Position numbers and translations under genes: made by a program
Shown: in pieces, positions 949 to 9,906 of the stretch
Numbering within the stretch: the first letter of the stretch is position 1
How the letters are laid out: every line of letters begins with the position of its first letter
The notes under the pieces: generated by a model
What the model was told of the DNA's origin: nothing
The model's input: the letters and a program-made list of their open reading frames with translations, nothing else
Databases searched by the model: none
Assembly: GCA_900659855.1 (NCBI GenBank)
Contig: CAACVI010000045.1
Location: 186,985-250,984, forward strand
Origin: Candidatus Desulfarcum epimagneticum
Lineage (GTDB): Bacteria; Desulfobacterota; Desulfobacteria; Desulfobacterales; CR-1
Reading direction: 5' to 3'
Length of the DNA: 64,000 bases

Positions 949-1929
949 ATGAAACCCCTTTCCCGAAGATCTTTTTTAAAGACCGGCCTGGCCTCGGCCG
1001 GGGCCGCGGCCTCGGGCCTCATTCCCCTGGCCTCGGCCCGCGGCGCCGATCCCGGCGAGCTGGCCACTTTGATTGATATTCAAAAATGCGTCGGGTGCGA
1101 AGCCTGTGTGGACGCGTGCCAGGAGATCAACACCTCCAAATTCCCGGAGCCCGGGCGTCCGTTTCCCAAAATGTATCCCGGCCGGGTGAAAGTCGCGGAC
1201 TGGTCGGACAAACGCGATGTCCGGGACCGGCTCACCCCCTACACATGGCTCTATATCCAGCGGGCGTCCATCGCCGGGCCCGACGGCGAAAAAACCTTGA
1301 ACATTCCCAGGCGATGCATGCACTGCCAGAACCCCCCGTGCGCGGACCTGTGCCCCTGGGGGGCGGCCCGGAAGCTGAAAAACGGGATCACACGAATCCA
1401 CCCGGACATCTGCCTGGGGGGCCAGAAATGCAAAGTGGTCTGCCCCTGGCATATCCCGGAGCGCCAGACCGGGGTGGGGCTGTACCTGGATATCCTGCCT
1501 TCCCTGGCCGGAAACGGGGTCATGTTCAAATGCGACCGCTGCTATGACCGCATCGAAAAAGGAGAGCTTCCGGCGTGCGTGGAGGAATGCCCCGAAGACG
1601 TTCAGACCATCGGGCCCAGGGACGAGATCATCAAACAGGCCCATGCCGTCGCGGACGAAATCGGGGGATATATTTACGGAGAAACCGAAAACGGGGGAAC
1701 GAACACCCTGTACGTGTCCCCGGTTCCCTTTGAGACATTGACCCGGTCCATTGAAAAAGGCCCCGGGCGCCCCGGTTTTGAGCCGGTTAAGGATTCCATG
1801 GCCCATGCGGACAACCTGGCCAAGGCCATGCTCATCGCGCCCTTCGCCGGCCTGGCGGCGGGAGCGGCCCGATTTTACGGCGCCGCAAAAAAACTGGCCC
1901 GATCGGCGGGGAAAGGAGAGGGAAAATAG
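949..1929 (+). CDS. Tat-exported ferredoxin, four [4Fe-4S] clusters (HmcB/DsrO-like electron-transfer subunit)
   Basis: The 326-residue product has a twin-arginine signal (SRRSFLKTG, residues 4-12) with an Ala-rich hydrophobic stretch. Four cysteine groups follow, in the order CVGCEACVDAC, CMHCQNPPCADLC, CLGGQKCKVVC and CDRCYDRI...CVEEC, the arrangement of FdhB/HmcB/DsrO-type subunits carrying four [4Fe-4S] clusters. A hydrophobic C-terminal segment may touch the membrane. It should pass electrons in the periplasm between a membrane quinone module and the multihaem cytochrome. A GGAG ribosome site precedes the ATG. The next gene starts 2 bases after the stop, so the two are probably cotranscribed. 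Confidence 0.9.
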   Translation: MKPLSRRSFLKTGLASAGAAASGLIPLASARGADPGELATLIDIQKCVGCEACVDACQEINTSKFPEPGRPFPKMYPGRVKVADWSDKRDVRDRLTPYTWLYIQRASIAGPDGEKTLNIPRRCMHCQNPPCADLCPWGAARKLKNGITRIHPDICLGGQKCKVVCPWHIPERQTGVGLYLDILPSLAGNGVMFKCDRCYDRIEKGELPACVEECPEDVQTIGPRDEIIKQAHAVADEIGGYIYGETENGGTNTLYVSPVPFETLTRSIEKGPGRPGFEPVKDSMAHADNLAKAMLIAPFAGLAAGAARFYGAAKKLARSAGKGEGK

Positions 1930-1931
1930 AC

Positions 1932-2399
1932 ATGGAAAAAAACTTTTTCGCCAAACGCGCGCGCGTGTCCCTGGCCTATGGCCTCATCCTTTTCATGACC
2001 GCCCTTTCCGGGTTCGCCCAGATGCCCATTTTCAAGCGCTATTACATCGCCGATATCCCGGGCCTGGGCTGGCTGGCGGATTTTTTCGTCACCCACTACA
2101 TCCACTACGCCGGGGCCGCGGCGCTGTTGTTTCTTTTCGCCTATTTTTCAACGGCCTATCTTCTGGCCGGGCCGCGGCGCCCGGCCCTTTCCAGGTCGTC
2201 CTTTGCCCGGATCGCCCTTCTGGCCGCCCTCGTTCTCACCGGCGCGTTCCGGGTTTTAAAAAATCTGCCGGATGTCGTGTTCTCCCCCGGCTTCACCCTG
2301 TTCATCGACATCTCCCACATGGCCTTCGCCATGTTTTTTCTCCTGGCGATCGCGGCGTTTCGTTTGATGAAGACCGGGTGGCTGAAATCCGGGAGGTGA
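1932..2399 (+). CDS. small four-helix membrane subunit of the redox module
   Basis: This 155-residue protein has about four hydrophobic helices (roughly residues 13-30, 55-77, 90-107, 118-140). Histidines near membrane boundaries (THYIHYAG and DISHMAF) could ligate b-type haem. It is not recognised as a named family. Its position immediately after the Tat ferredoxin, and ahead of the multihaem cytochrome and cytochrome b, suggests a membrane anchor or quinone-interacting subunit. Its stop codon lies exactly where a family A repeat begins, so the 3' end may have been trimmed or redefined by that insertion. Confidence 0.75.
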   Translation: MEKNFFAKRARVSLAYGLILFMTALSGFAQMPIFKRYYIADIPGLGWLADFFVTHYIHYAGAAALLFLFAYFSTAYLLAGPRRPALSRSSFARIALLAALVLTGAFRVLKNLPDVVFSPGFTLFIDISHMAFAMFFLLAIAAFRLMKTGWLKSGR

Positions 2400-2647: not shown

Positions 2648-3901
2648 ATGAAAGGTAGCATGTTCATTATGCGACAAACGTCATACATCCCCCGCCCGGT
2701 TTTCGACTCCAAAATCAAACAATTCCTGGAGGAATCCCCGACCGTGATTCTTTTGGGGGCCCGGCAGGTGGGAAAAACCACCCTTGCCCGGCGTTTTTCC
2801 GACGGCCTGGACAAGGTCCATTATTTTGACCTTGAGCGGGCCGCTTCCCGCGCCGCGCTCTCAACCCCGGAGCTGACCCTTTCGGAGCTGAGCGGAACCG
2901 TCGTCATTGACGAAATCCAAAGAATGCCCCAGCTTTTTGAGACCCTTCGCCCCTTATGCGACCGTCCGGGAAACCCCGCCCGTTTCCTGCTTTTGGGAAG
3001 CGCCTCCCCGGACATCGTCAAAGGAGTTTCGGAATCCCTGGCGGGCCGGGCGCTTTTCATTAATGTGCCCGGATTTTCCCTTGGAGAGGTCGGGAATGAT
3101 TCACAAAACCCTTTATGGCTGAGGGGAGCGTTCCCCCGGTCATTTCTGGCGCCAAATGACGACGCCAGCATGCGCTGGCGCGAGGCGTTTGTCCAGACCT
3201 TCCTGGAGCGGGACATGCCCCTTCTGGGCGTGCGGACTCCCCCGGAAAGACTGCGCCGGTTCTGGATGATGGTCTCCCATTATCACGGCGCCGTATGGAA
3301 CGGCTCGGAAATCGCCCGATCGGTGGGGGTCTCCCTTCCCACGATCCGCCACTACCTGGATATACTGGCCGGTGGATACATCCTGCGCGTTCTGCCCCCC
3401 TGGTTTGAAAACATCAAAAAAAGGCAGGTCAAATCCCCGAAGGTGTATATCCGGGACACCGGGCTGCTTCATTCCATGCTGGGAATCGACTCCATGGCCG
3501 CGCTGCGTTCCCACCCCTCCTACGGCGCCTCCTGGGAGGGATTCGCCCTGGAGCAGATTCTCATTTTGTTCGGCCACCCAAATGCCTGTTACTGGCGAAC
3601 CCATCGGGGCGCCGAGCTGGATTTGATGATCTTTCACAAAGGAAAACGTCTGGGATTTGAGTTCAAATGCGCCGACGCCCCGGTCATGACCCGCTCCATG
3701 CACACGGCCCTTCGCGATCTCAAGCTGGACCGGCTCCATGTGATCTACCCGGGATCAAAATCATACCCGATCCATGAAAAGGCCCATGCGACGCCGCTTT
3801 CGCGGGCGGCTGCGCTTCTGCCCCGGGGAAACTTCACCCCAGGGGCTTTCCCACCATCCAAAAACAAAAAAGACCCCAAAAAAAAGGAGGATAACCCATG
3901 A
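2648..3901 (+). CDS. AAA ATPase with DUF4143 domain, inserted in the redox operon
   Basis: The protein has up to 417 residues. A Walker A loop (GARQVGKTT) lies near residue 40 and a Walker B (TVVIDEIQRMP) near residue 90. A DUF4143 region follows, ending in a nuclease-like fold (HRGAELDLMIFHKGKRLGFEFK). Starts at 2648, 2660 and 2669 are all possible; none has a strong ribosome site. The last 25 or so residues are low-complexity (Pro, Asn, Lys) and run into the Shine-Dalgarno region of the next gene, whose ATG overlaps the stop (ATGA). This tail looks like former intergenic DNA, suggesting the gene was inserted upstream of the cytochrome. Its role is unknown. Confidence 0.88.
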   Translation: MKGSMFIMRQTSYIPRPVFDSKIKQFLEESPTVILLGARQVGKTTLARRFSDGLDKVHYFDLERAASRAALSTPELTLSELSGTVVIDEIQRMPQLFETLRPLCDRPGNPARFLLLGSASPDIVKGVSESLAGRALFINVPGFSLGEVGNDSQNPLWLRGAFPRSFLAPNDDASMRWREAFVQTFLERDMPLLGVRTPPERLRRFWMMVSHYHGAVWNGSEIARSVGVSLPTIRHYLDILAGGYILRVLPPWFENIKKRQVKSPKVYIRDTGLLHSMLGIDSMAALRSHPSYGASWEGFALEQILILFGHPNACYWRTHRGAELDLMIFHKGKRLGFEFKCADAPVMTRSMHTALRDLKLDRLHVIYPGSKSYPIHEKAHATPLSRAAALLPRGNFTPGAFPPSKNKKDPKKKEDNP

Positions 3902-5553
3902 GATTCGCCAAAGCGCGCGGCCTTTCATGGGCCCTGGCCCTGGCGGTATGCCTGGCGCCGGCGGCCCCGGCCCTTTCGGCCGTTTCTGAAAATGACTCGG
4001 CCCCGGGCCGAAAGATGGCCCGGCAGGCTGTGGGAGAAAAAAAATCCTGGATCACGGCCGATCACTCCCAACATGACATTTTAAAACAGAAATTCACATC
4101 CGGGCCGGAGGTCACCCGGGCCTGTCTCCACTGCCACAACCAGGCGGCCGTCCAGTTTCACAAAACCATCCACTGGACCTGGATGAACCCCCTGGCCCCC
4201 AAAGAGGCGGGGCTGGGAAAAGGCGGGCTTTCCATCAACAACTTCTGAATCAACATCCAAAGCAACGAGGCTCGTTGCACATCGTGTCACGCCGGTTATG
4301 GATGGAAAGACAAAAATTTTGATTTTTCAGACCCCTCCAAAGTGGACTGCCTGGTCTGTCACGAGCAGACCGGAGCCTATAAAAAATTTCCCGCCGGCGC
4401 GGGAAATCCCGTGTCCGCGCCCAAGGTGTTTCCCGGGAACAAAAAAAAATATTTCCCGCCGGATTACAACCAGTCGGCCCGGAGCGTGGGCCGGCCCTCC
4501 CGTAAAAACTGCGGAACCTGCCATTTTTACGGCGGCGGGGGAGACGGGGTGAAACACGGCGACCTGGACTCGTCTTTGGCAAAGCCCAACAAGGCCCTGG
4601 ATGTTCACATGGGCCTGGACGGCCGGAATTTCGACTGTGTGCGCTGCCACACCACCACCCTGCACCAGGTCGCCGGGCGCCTGTACACCACCCCGGCTTT
4701 CAAGGGCCGCAAAAGCCTGGTGGAAGACGATCTGGCCTCCAAGATCACATGCGAGTCATGCCACACCGCCAAACCCCATAAAGTCAACGCCAAAGCCAAC
4801 GACCACACCGACAGGGTGGCGTGCCAGAGCTGCCATATTCCGACCTTCGCCCGGGTGAACCCCACCAAGATGTGGTGGGACTGGTCCACGGCCGGGAAGA
4901 AAAAAAACGGCAAACCCTACATGATCAAGGATGATTTTGGAAAACCCCGTTATTTCACCAAAAAGGGGGACATGCGCTGGGAGAAAAACGTCAAGCCCGA
5001 TTACTTCTGGTTCAACGGCGCCATGGAGTACATCACGGTCAAAGACACCATTGATCCGGGCCAAACGGTCCCCTTGAACCGTCCCATGGGAAGCATGGAC
5101 GATCCCAATTCCCGAATTTTCCCCTTCAAAATCCACCGGGGAAAACAGCCCTATGACAAGGTGAACAAAAACATGACCATCGTCCATCTCTTCCCCAAGG
5201 GCAAAGAGGACAAGGACGCCTACTGGAAGGGGTACGACTGGGCCAAAGCCATCGCGTTCGGAATGGATTACGCGGGCCTGCCTTTCTCCGGGGAATATGA
5301 TTTTGTGGAGACGAGCTACATGTTTCCCATCACCCATATGGTGGCGCCCAAGGAGAATGCCGTGGCCTGCTCCGAGTGCCACGCGCCTGAAAACAGCCGC
5401 CTGGCCTCTCTGGCGGGATTTTACATGCCGGGACGCGACGGCGCGGGCGTGGTGGACATCCTGGGGTGGCTCCTGGCGCTGGGCTCTTTGATCGGCGTGA
5501 TCGCGCACGGAGTGGGAAGGGTTCTGTCCGCTTCGGGAAGGAGGGAAAAATAA
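3898..5553 (+). CDS. octahaem c-type cytochrome (tetrathionate reductase/OTR family), probable selenoprotein
   Basis: Read through one in-frame TGA (4246-4248, residue 117), this is a 551-residue periplasmic cytochrome with a signal peptide (residues 1-28) and eight CXXCH haem sites. One lies before the TGA (CLHCH, 76-80) and seven after it (CTSCH, CLVCH, CGTCH, CVRCH, CESCH, CQSCH, CSECH). A C-terminal membrane helix spans roughly 520-542. The segments HWTW, NNF-stop-I, SNEARCTSCHAGYGW and GAYKKF match the octahaem tetrathionate reductase family as I remember it, where the TGA position is cysteine. Codon use and frame are intact on both sides, and a SECIS-like hairpin follows the TGA, so selenocysteine is favoured over a nonsense mutation. 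The cytochrome b gene follows 4 bases later. Likely substrates are sulfur or nitrogen oxyanions, but the true substrate is unknown. Confidence 0.85.
4246..4278 (+). promoter_or_regulatory. in-frame TGA with bacterial SECIS-like hairpin
   Basis: The TGA at 4246-4248 is followed by a perfect 7-base-pair stem, GCAACGA (4262-4268) with TCGTTGC (4272-4278), closing a GGC loop. The loop begins 20 bases after the TGA. Bacterial SECIS elements, read by SelB, lie directly downstream of the UGA, with an apical loop that carries guanine early and starts about 16-37 bases away; this hairpin meets those rules. The same bases encode the start of the second haem motif. No selA, selB, selC or selD is in the window. 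Confidence 0.75.
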
Positions 5554-5557
5554 CATC

Positions 5558-6214
5558 ATGGAAAACAAAAAAATGACCCATCTGTATCTGTATTCCCGTT
5601 ATGAGCGCTTCTGGCACTGGCTCCAGTCCCTTCTGATCCTCATTCTTCTGGCCACAGGCCTGGAAGTCAAGGGCGTTTTCACCCTCTTCGGATTCCACAG
5701 CGCGGTGAAGATTCACAATTTCACCGGGCTGTCCTGGCTGGTCGCCTTCGCCTTTTTCGTGTTCTGGATTTTCACCACCGGGGAGTGGCGCCAGTATGTC
5801 CCCACCACCCGGAAGATGCTGTCCGTGTGCCGGTATTACGCCCTGGGGATTTTTCGCGGGGAAGACCATCCGGTCCCCAAAAGAAAAGAGGCCAAGCACA
5901 ACCCCCTTCAGCGCCTCATCTACCTGGGCCTGGCCGCCCTTCTGCTGCCCATCCAGATGATCACCGGGTTTTTGTACTGGGGATACAACTCCTGGGCCGA
6001 ATGGGGCCTGGACGGGGCGCTGTCGCTGAAAGTTCTGGCCACGGTTCATGTGGCGGGGTCTTTCGCCATCCTGTCCTTTCTCATCGTTCATCTTTACATG
6101 ATCACCACCGGCCATTCCCTGGGGTCCCATGCCAAAGCCATGATCACGGGATGGGAAAGCGTGGAGGAGGGAGAAAAAATCGAAGACTGGGAAAAGGCCC
6201 GGGCCGCGCGATAA
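5558..6214 (+). CDS. membrane cytochrome b subunit
   Basis: This 218-residue protein has four or so membrane helices. Haem-ligand histidines are placed as in the thiosulfate reductase/formate dehydrogenase gamma cytochrome b family: ERFWHWLQS early, then FHSAVKIHNFTG, VHVAGSF and FLIVHLYMITTGH. It would link the quinone pool to the periplasmic ferredoxin and octahaem cytochrome encoded upstream. The ATG follows the cytochrome c stop by 4 bases. A strong hairpin follows the gene, marking the operon end. Confidence 0.88.
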   Translation: MENKKMTHLYLYSRYERFWHWLQSLLILILLATGLEVKGVFTLFGFHSAVKIHNFTGLSWLVAFAFFVFWIFTTGEWRQYVPTTRKMLSVCRYYALGIFRGEDHPVPKRKEAKHNPLQRLIYLGLAALLLPIQMITGFLYWGYNSWAEWGLDGALSLKVLATVHVAGSFAILSFLIVHLYMITTGHSLGSHAKAMITGWESVEEGEKIEDWEKARAAR

Positions 6215-8855: not shown

Positions 8856-9740
8856 TCAAAACGCCAGGGCCACGCTTTCCGGGTCTCCCTCCTTTTTCGC
8901 CTGCTGCAAAAAAGGAAACACGCACCCGCATTGGCCGCAATCCACATCGCGCCCGAGCACGCAGGGAAGTTTTCTCTCCAGCCGCAAATCAAGGGTCAGG
9001 GTTCGGTCGGGCATGTTGCAAAGCGCCACGCATTTTTCAGAGGAGCCGCTCATCATCAGCTCAAGGGTTCGCGCGGGATTGAAAATAAACCCCTCGTATT
9101 CCTTTTTCATCTCAAGCAGATCCTCAATGGCGCGGTCCCTCTCTTCCGGAGAAAGGGCCAGACTCTCCGCCTGCTCAGCGGTGTGCTCATACCCTTTGAC
9201 GGGGCGGTATGTTTTAAGAGGGGTGAAAAAAAGAACGCCCAGCCGGGCGTTGGGAACCCGGGACAGAATGGACACCATCTCTTTGAGATGGGGGGCGTTT
9301 TTTCGGTTGATGGTGGTAAGAAAAATCACGAGGGGCAGTTTGGCCCGCCTGACATTTTCAAGACTCTTTTCAAAGGCCCCGGCGCCCCGGATATAGTTGT
9401 GAACCTCCGGGGGGCCGTCAATGGACACGCACACAATCGCGTTGGGCAGGCGGGGAAACGGAAGGGTCCCATTGGAATAAATGGTGTTGAATTTAAAAAG
9501 CCCCGTCCCTTTTTCCAAAAGCTCCCGGCGGTATGTGGGCTCGCCCCCGCACCAGCCCATGCTCAGGATGTTGTGCCGGTCCCGAAGCGTCTCCAAACCC
9601 TCAAGAAAGGCCCCCTCCTCCATGTCCCGGCTGTCATGCTCTTCCCTGAAATAAAAGCAATGACGGCGCCTGAGATTGCATTTATCCGTGACATCGACAA
9701 TGGCGGAATGATATTGTCCCGGCTGTTTCTCTTCAAACAT
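8856..9740 (-). CDS. radical SAM/SPASM-like protein with an altered cluster motif
   Basis: The start at 9740 is chosen because GGAGG lies 7 bases upstream; a longer frame exists to 9779. The 294-residue protein has the fold signals of a radical SAM enzyme: DVTDKCNL...HCFYF, GWCGGEP, IYSNGT and VSIDGPPEVHNYIRG. A C-terminal Cys group (CVLGRDVDCGQCGC) resembles an auxiliary-cluster domain. The canonical CXXXCXXC reads CNLRRRHC, so the second Cys is Arg (codon CGC, 9666-9668), one transition from TGC. With only two of three ligands it may be inactive, or the base may be an error. The substrate is unknown. Confidence 0.82.
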   Translation of the reverse strand: MFEEKQPGQYHSAIVDVTDKCNLRRRHCFYFREEHDSRDMEEGAFLEGLETLRDRHNILSMGWCGGEPTYRRELLEKGTGLFKFNTIYSNGTLPFPRLPNAIVCVSIDGPPEVHNYIRGAGAFEKSLENVRRAKLPLVIFLTTINRKNAPHLKEMVSILSRVPNARLGVLFFTPLKTYRPVKGYEHTAEQAESLALSPEERDRAIEDLLEMKKEYEGFIFNPARTLELMMSGSSEKCVALCNMPDRTLTLDLRLERKLPCVLGRDVDCGQCGCVFPFLQQAKKEGDPESVALAF

Positions 9741-9906
9741 GGATGGCCTCCTTCCCCCTGAAATCCGGTAACCATTCACGGGGTTGAAATGGTCAATATG
9801 TGATAACCCACCGAACTGTAAGCGTTACCCACTCAAAACAGCGAAGAGCCATTTTTCTTTTTTTCCCAGGCAGGTTGACAATTTCTGTAATTTAGTGACA
9901 TCTGCT

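Follow-up and report, generated by a model that had tools for sequence, protein, structure and literature searches.

An in-frame UGA, very probably read as selenocysteine, in an octahaem cytochrome c gene of the tetrathionate reductase family

In a 64-kb window, by which we mean the whole stretch of DNA that was analysed, a 551-codon frame (3898-5553, + strand) is open except for a TGA at 4246-4248, which is codon 117. Does this codon end the gene, or is it read as an amino acid, and what might that residue do in the protein? An earlier note on this DNA had described an in-frame TGA in an intact 551-codon gene with eight CXXCH sites and had proposed that it encodes selenocysteine (Sec); the same coordinates were recovered here.

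The gene, its in-frame UGA and the decoding machinery

A Shine-Dalgarno-like AGGAGG stands 7 nt 5' of the frame. The gene was translated with TGA read as U, and the read-through protein matched TIGR04315, the tetrathionate reductase family of octaheme c-type cytochromes (PMC13188914), over positions 1-440 of the 440-position model, with a score of 636.2 bits against a cut-off of 375. It also matched the octahaem tetrathionate reductase (OTR) of Shewanella (PDB 1SP3) in a phmmer comparison (6.9e-127). Eight CXXCH motifs were counted, and the aligned haem sites are invariant among homologues. An AlphaFold2 model built from 12 sequences was poor, with a mean pLDDT of 52.9 and residues 114-137 below 50. 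The sequence features identify the product as a predicted periplasmic, membrane-anchored octahaem cytochrome of the OTR family (Table 1).

Table 1. Features of the Sec-OTR locus, with positions in the window
Feature	Position	Strand	Evidence
HmcB/HybA-like 4Fe-4S protein with TAT export; may serve accessory electron transfer	949..1929	+	Profile matches; recurrence near OTR
Small membrane protein of no known family	1932..2399	+	Accompanies the Fe-S gene
Octahaem c-type cytochrome of the OTR family, predicted to contain Sec; N-terminal signal, 8 CXXCH, C-terminal TM helix	3898..5553	+	TIGR04315, 1SP3 match, translation
UGA codon 117, very probably read as Sec; aligns with Cys64 of 1SP3	4246..4248	+	Cys/TGA only in 188 homologues
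Putative bSECIS hairpin, class A: stem 4262-4268 / 4272-4278, loop GGC 4269-4271	4262..4278	+	Nucleotide-fixed in 21/22 class A Sec homologues
CTSCH haem 2 binding motif, residues 127-131	4276..4290	+	Invariant in 188 homologues; 1SP3 alignment
Lys219, equivalent by counting to Lys153 of 1SP3, the active-site haem-ligating lysine	4552..4554	+	Alignment, 188 homologues
Hydrophobic helix at the C-terminus (residues 517-548), probably a membrane anchor	5446..5541	+	Sequence; helix in low-confidence model
Membrane subunit of cytochrome b561 type, probably a quinol oxidase partner	5558..6214	+	PF01292, 1.2e-26

The set of homologues was drawn from genome contigs, 96 whole genomes (the organism's own and others of its order), 395 genomes of the phylum and further stretches of DNA. 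Among 189 non-duplicate places that align to codon 117, 136 carry TGC or TGT, 52 carry TGA and 1 is a misaligned paralogue. The 188 aligned homologues have Cys (136) or TGA (52) at this site and nothing else, as the earlier note had anticipated in placing a Cys at the fourth position of NNF-x-I in this family; in the window's protein the motif reads NNF-U-I. By a hand count of chain positions, residue 117 aligns with Cys64 of 1SP3, the residue the note had named; the CXXCH of haem 2 follows ten residues later. The search for related TGA genes that the note had suggested yielded 52 distinct loci with TGA at this codon, from many independent assemblies. One of the TGA loci, L027, belongs to Salidesulfovibrio brasiliensis, which has been cultured. 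Within the phylum sample, the TGA form occurs in 29 of the 68 genomes that have an above-cut-off OTR.

The genome of the organism itself, a bacterium resembling sulfate reducers, contains selA, selB, selC (tRNA-Sec) and selD, each above its curated cut-off, which answers the note's call for a check of the Sec machinery. Across the family, selA was present in 39 of 42 genomes with the Sec form and in 36 of 38 with the Cys form; its presence is consistent with the Sec reading but is no guide to which form a genome carries. The three genomes that have the Sec form and lack selA are drafts, 81-90% complete. The organism's own SelD gene (G000:C12:51993-52922, L128) also has one in-frame TGA, and SelD is probably a selenoprotein too.

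A hairpin in two registers and repeated exchange of Sec and Cys

The hairpin 3' of the TGA has the sequence GCAACGA-GGC-TCGTTGC, and its 3' arm (4272-4278) includes the codon for the first cysteine in the haem 2 motif. The perfect 7-bp stem and the GGC loop agree with the earlier note, which had the hairpin begin 20 bases after the TGA; the stem in fact starts at 13 nt, and it is the loop that starts at 20 nt. Under the bacterial SECIS rules as printed in PMC13188914, the hairpin passes (7 bp, loop GGC, 20 nt), in agreement with the note. Taken alone, the 17-nt hairpin folds at -7.5 kcal/mol, exactly at the bSECIS limit, and the 45-nt fold reaches -10.2. The latter has a z score of -1.77, with 14 of 200 shuffles equally stable, and 649 of 20,000 synonymous recodings (3.2%) reach the bSECIS threshold. 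By itself, the window's own hairpin is modestly unusual. The rules were passed by all 52 TGA genes and by 6 of the 136 Cys genes. The hairpin is therefore found far more often than chance would give, and this family-wide comparison of sequences is, in our reading, decisive for Sec. When the 64-kb window was scanned for other TGA codons followed by a bSECIS-like hairpin, 11 candidates were returned, none of which looked coding-like by eye.

The 52 Sec-gene hairpins fall into two classes. In class A (22 genes, including that of the window) the loop lies 20 nt after the UGA, and in class B (30 genes) it lies 24 nt after it. Codons +6 to +10 of class A are AAC GAG GCT CGT TGC in 21 of 22 genes, with TCT for GCT in the other. 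Class A proteins are as little as about 42% identical to the window's protein, yet the hairpin codons are fixed at synonymous sites. The class B hairpin is CTGGTGC-AGGT-GCACCAG with small variants and encodes N-W-C-R/S-C. Cys homologues with the same or similar peptides use mixed synonymous codons at the hairpin positions. Pairing covariation is uninformative for class A, since its stems are identical in nucleotide sequence; class B contains one two-sided change at the base of the stem, where L142 has U-A in place of C-G, as well as G-U variants. The existence of two registers suggests that the hairpin arose at least twice, or that one hairpin slid.

The residue under the loop differs with the form of the gene. 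Residue +8 is Pro in 73 of the 136 Cys homologues and in none of the 52 Sec homologues, in which it is Ala (21), Cys (30) or Ser (1). The simplest reading of this pattern is that the RNA loop would dictate residue +8. All 30 class B Sec proteins (for example, L044, L179 and L184) have an extra Cys at +8 that is absent in the 136 Cys homologues. This Cys may be forced by the RNA loop, or it may have a redox role as a selenenylsulfide partner.

Sec and Cys also appear, from the trees, to have been exchanged repeatedly at residue 117 within the family. A FastTree tree was built from 188 proteins with Sec entered as an unknown residue; on it, the Sec/Cys label requires no fewer than 8 changes, of which starred branches force 6. 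A quick IQ-TREE tree of 66 proteins gave 10 changes, 8 of them forced. The counts on both trees are undirected and do not distinguish Sec-to-Cys from Cys-to-Sec changes.

One locus appears to preserve such a change. In L010 (JABDRH010000194.1), from a Desulfatitalea MAG whose OTR is 69% identical to the window's protein, a TGT stands at 5070 and the class A hairpin is intact at 21 of 21 positions. The next best match among Cys homologues is 18 of 21, and Cys homologues with Asn-Glu average 14.8. IQ-TREE places L010 as sister to the window's protein (support 88); the placement differs in the FastTree tree, in which two Cys rows stand beside the Sec clade. A recent one-base change from Sec to Cys, before the hairpin had decayed, fits these sequences best, and an assembly error producing a TGT above an intact hairpin in this single MAG is possible.

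These data bear on whether codon 117 is decoded at all. A real stop, which would leave a truncated gene or a decaying pseudogene, is highly improbable. TGA does end other genes of the window, such as 1932-2399 and 2648-3901, but the codon at 4246-4248 is followed by 434 open, conserved codons with seven of the eight haem sites, which bears out the note's description of an undecayed flanking frame. Moreover, 52 homologues have TGA at the same codon together with a conserved hairpin, and selA to selD are present. This reading was rejected on all three grounds. A sequencing or assembly error for TGC or TGT deserves still less credence: Cys codons are one base away from TGA, but the same TGA occurs, always with the hairpin, in dozens of independently assembled genomes, and an error at 4246-4248, contradicted by these homologues, is therefore excluded. 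Equally negligible, and likewise rejected, is reassignment of TGA to another amino acid such as tryptophan, for which no support was found in the organism; the homologues have Cys and never Trp at the site, TGA still terminates genes of the window, and tRNA-Sec, SelA and SelB are present. The three findings that the note had named as fatal to its proposal, namely, missing Sec machinery, homologues without Cys and a sequencing error, were each looked for, and none emerged. We conclude that codon 117 is almost certainly decoded as Sec. Its presence in the 3898-5553 product is very well supported, and we infer the selenium in the protein from the DNA.

Genomic setting, active site and proposed mechanism

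The cytochrome b561 gene lies directly 3' of the OTR gene in the window, and a homologue has the same place in 77 of 80 related loci, whether these carry Sec or Cys. This neighbour and the C-terminal membrane helix together point to a membrane-anchored, quinol-fed complex. The HmcB/HybA-like Fe-S gene is close upstream of OTR in L016, L021 and L025 and elsewhere in the locus in several others. It is paired with the small membrane protein, which had no Pfam or NCBIfam match, in L016, L021, L025, L040, L041 and others. In the window, genes for DUF4143/AAA_14 ATPases (61-930 and 2648-3901) flank this pair. The second of them precedes the OTR gene, overlaps its start by four bases (ATGA) and had no tblastn match in the 80 related loci.

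Several further observations were made in these sequences. A thirteen-haem branch of the family (L130-L140 and L143, class A; L222 and L223) has five N-terminal CXXCH motifs joined to the OTR domain, with Sec at the same codon, and the gene of L223 adjoins HmcB-like Fe-S and NrfD-like genes. Elsewhere in the window are a radical SAM protein (8856-9779, - strand) with the motif CNLRRRHC, in which the middle Cys of CX3CX2C is apparently missing; a zeta-toxin-like/AAA kinase-fold protein of 199 aa (PF06414; 6863-7462, + strand); and a cobalamin riboswitch (RF00174; 49501-49697, + strand; 95 bits), the sole Rfam report in the window.

Lys219 and the cysteines and histidine of the haem 2 motif are invariant in the 188 homologues. 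We take haem 2 to be the catalytic haem of OTR, and Cys64 and Lys153 of 1SP3 are presumably located at the lysine-ligated active-site haem. Lysine ligation of the OTR active-site haem has been described (PMC12285233). As judged from the alignment, it is very likely that Sec117 sits at the catalytic site, replacing a conserved Cys beside lysine-ligated haem 2. Sec is not needed for the fold or the basic function, since most homologues manage with Cys.

We propose the following sequence of events. UGA117 is very probably decoded by means of the 4262-4278 hairpin and SelA, SelB, SelC and SelD. Electrons from quinol would pass through the adjacent cytochrome b561 and along the chain of haems to haem 2. 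At this haem, the selenolate would attack tetrathionate, or a similar sulfur-sulfur substrate, at its central S-S bond, freeing one thiosulfate and leaving a seleno-sulfur adduct, from which two haem electrons would then free the second product. These chemical steps follow what has been proposed for the active-site cysteine of TsdA: the cysteine attacks tetrathionate, one thiosulfate leaves, and the other stays bound as an S-thiosulfonate and is set free by two haem electrons (PMC5146829). The TsdA cysteine cycle with selenium in place of sulfur would thus be the leading model for Sec-OTR. The analogy is loose, because the TsdA cysteine ligates the haem iron and OTR uses a lysine for this. The joint explanation, comprising a Sec-OTR, its decoding by SECIS and Sel proteins, Sec at haem 2 and a selenolate mechanism, has in our judgment a high probability. 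Its parts vary in strength: we are evenly divided on whether Sec117 is the catalytic nucleophile, and we hold only tentatively that tetrathionate is the main natural substrate.

The strongest alternative, which we rate slightly below even, keeps Sec catalytic and makes the natural substrate nitrite, hydroxylamine or another reduced sulfur species. Tetrathionate and nitrite reduction have been measured for a Beggiatoaceae OTR, and characterised OTRs reduce nitrite and hydroxylamine besides tetrathionate (PMC6449678). The organism's genome, which contains dsrA and in which NrfA had no match above cut-off, would also suit such a substrate. Against this, a nucleophilic selenol would be expected to suit S-S cleavage better than the six-electron reduction of nitrite.

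Somewhat less probable, though still a serious candidate, is that Sec is inserted without being a nucleophile and has a protective or redox-tuning role near haem 2, for example, against irreversible oxidation. Protection from overoxidation has been proposed for the Sec of [NiFeSe] hydrogenase (PMC13188914), and such a role would accord with the repeated switching at this site and with the 136 of 188 homologues in which Cys serves there. However, a site that is always Cys or Sec argues for a chemical role of the thiol or selenol, and the TsdA precedent favours catalysis. The catalytic selenolate can also be put in its most specific form, in which the selenol acts directly at a lysine-ligated c-haem, through a covalent Se-S adduct or a transient Se-Fe contact during turnover, is supplied through at least two SECIS designs and has been repeatedly exchanged with Cys. 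In that full form the proposal is speculative, and we give it roughly one chance in three.

Prior knowledge and comparison with known systems

Sec-containing OTR is already known at the annotation level. A 2026 review lists the TIGR04315 family among GenBank-annotated prokaryotic selenoproteins, with one Sec, the motif given as not available and WP_331457571.1 as the accession, and it gives neither a SECIS element nor a function for Sec-OTR (PMC13188914). The novelty implied by the earlier note was too high in this respect. Our literature search, which had most subscription journals outside its range, returned no paper on the Sec site, the SECIS classes or Sec/Cys switching and no match for Cys64 of OTR. 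Within that range, the location of the Sec, the pair of SECIS registers and the repeated exchange of Sec and Cys appear to be new to the literature.

If the proposal is true, the enzyme would place selenium next to a catalytic haem, an unusual chemistry. The family offers natural Cys/Sec pairs, including close relatives, with which the contribution of selenium can be probed. It is also a compact record of Sec/Cys exchange, with two registers, a residue apparently dictated by the loop and a Cys gene with an intact hairpin. Genome annotation can easily cut Sec-OTR genes short at the TGA or divide them there.

The nearest known system is the Sec form of TIGR04315 (WP_331457571.1), which shares with the window's protein its family and one Sec per protein. 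Shewanella oneidensis OTR (1SP3) is homologous over the whole domain and likewise has eight CXXCH motifs, the NNF-C/U-x motif and the active-site lysine. It has Cys at position 64 and is described as soluble, whereas the window's protein very probably has Sec there, together with a membrane helix at its C-terminus and cytochrome b561 as its probable partner. ExtKL (NF040886) is another multihaem c-type cytochrome listed as a selenoprotein (PMC13188914), but it belongs to a different family, and the window's protein had no NCBIfam match to NF040886. TsdA, a dihaem thiosulfate dehydrogenase/tetrathionate reductase, supplies the mechanistic comparison, as its catalytic Cys at a c-haem forms an S-thiosulfonate (PMC5146829); unlike the window's protein, it has an unrelated dihaem fold, a Cys that ligates the haem iron and no Sec.
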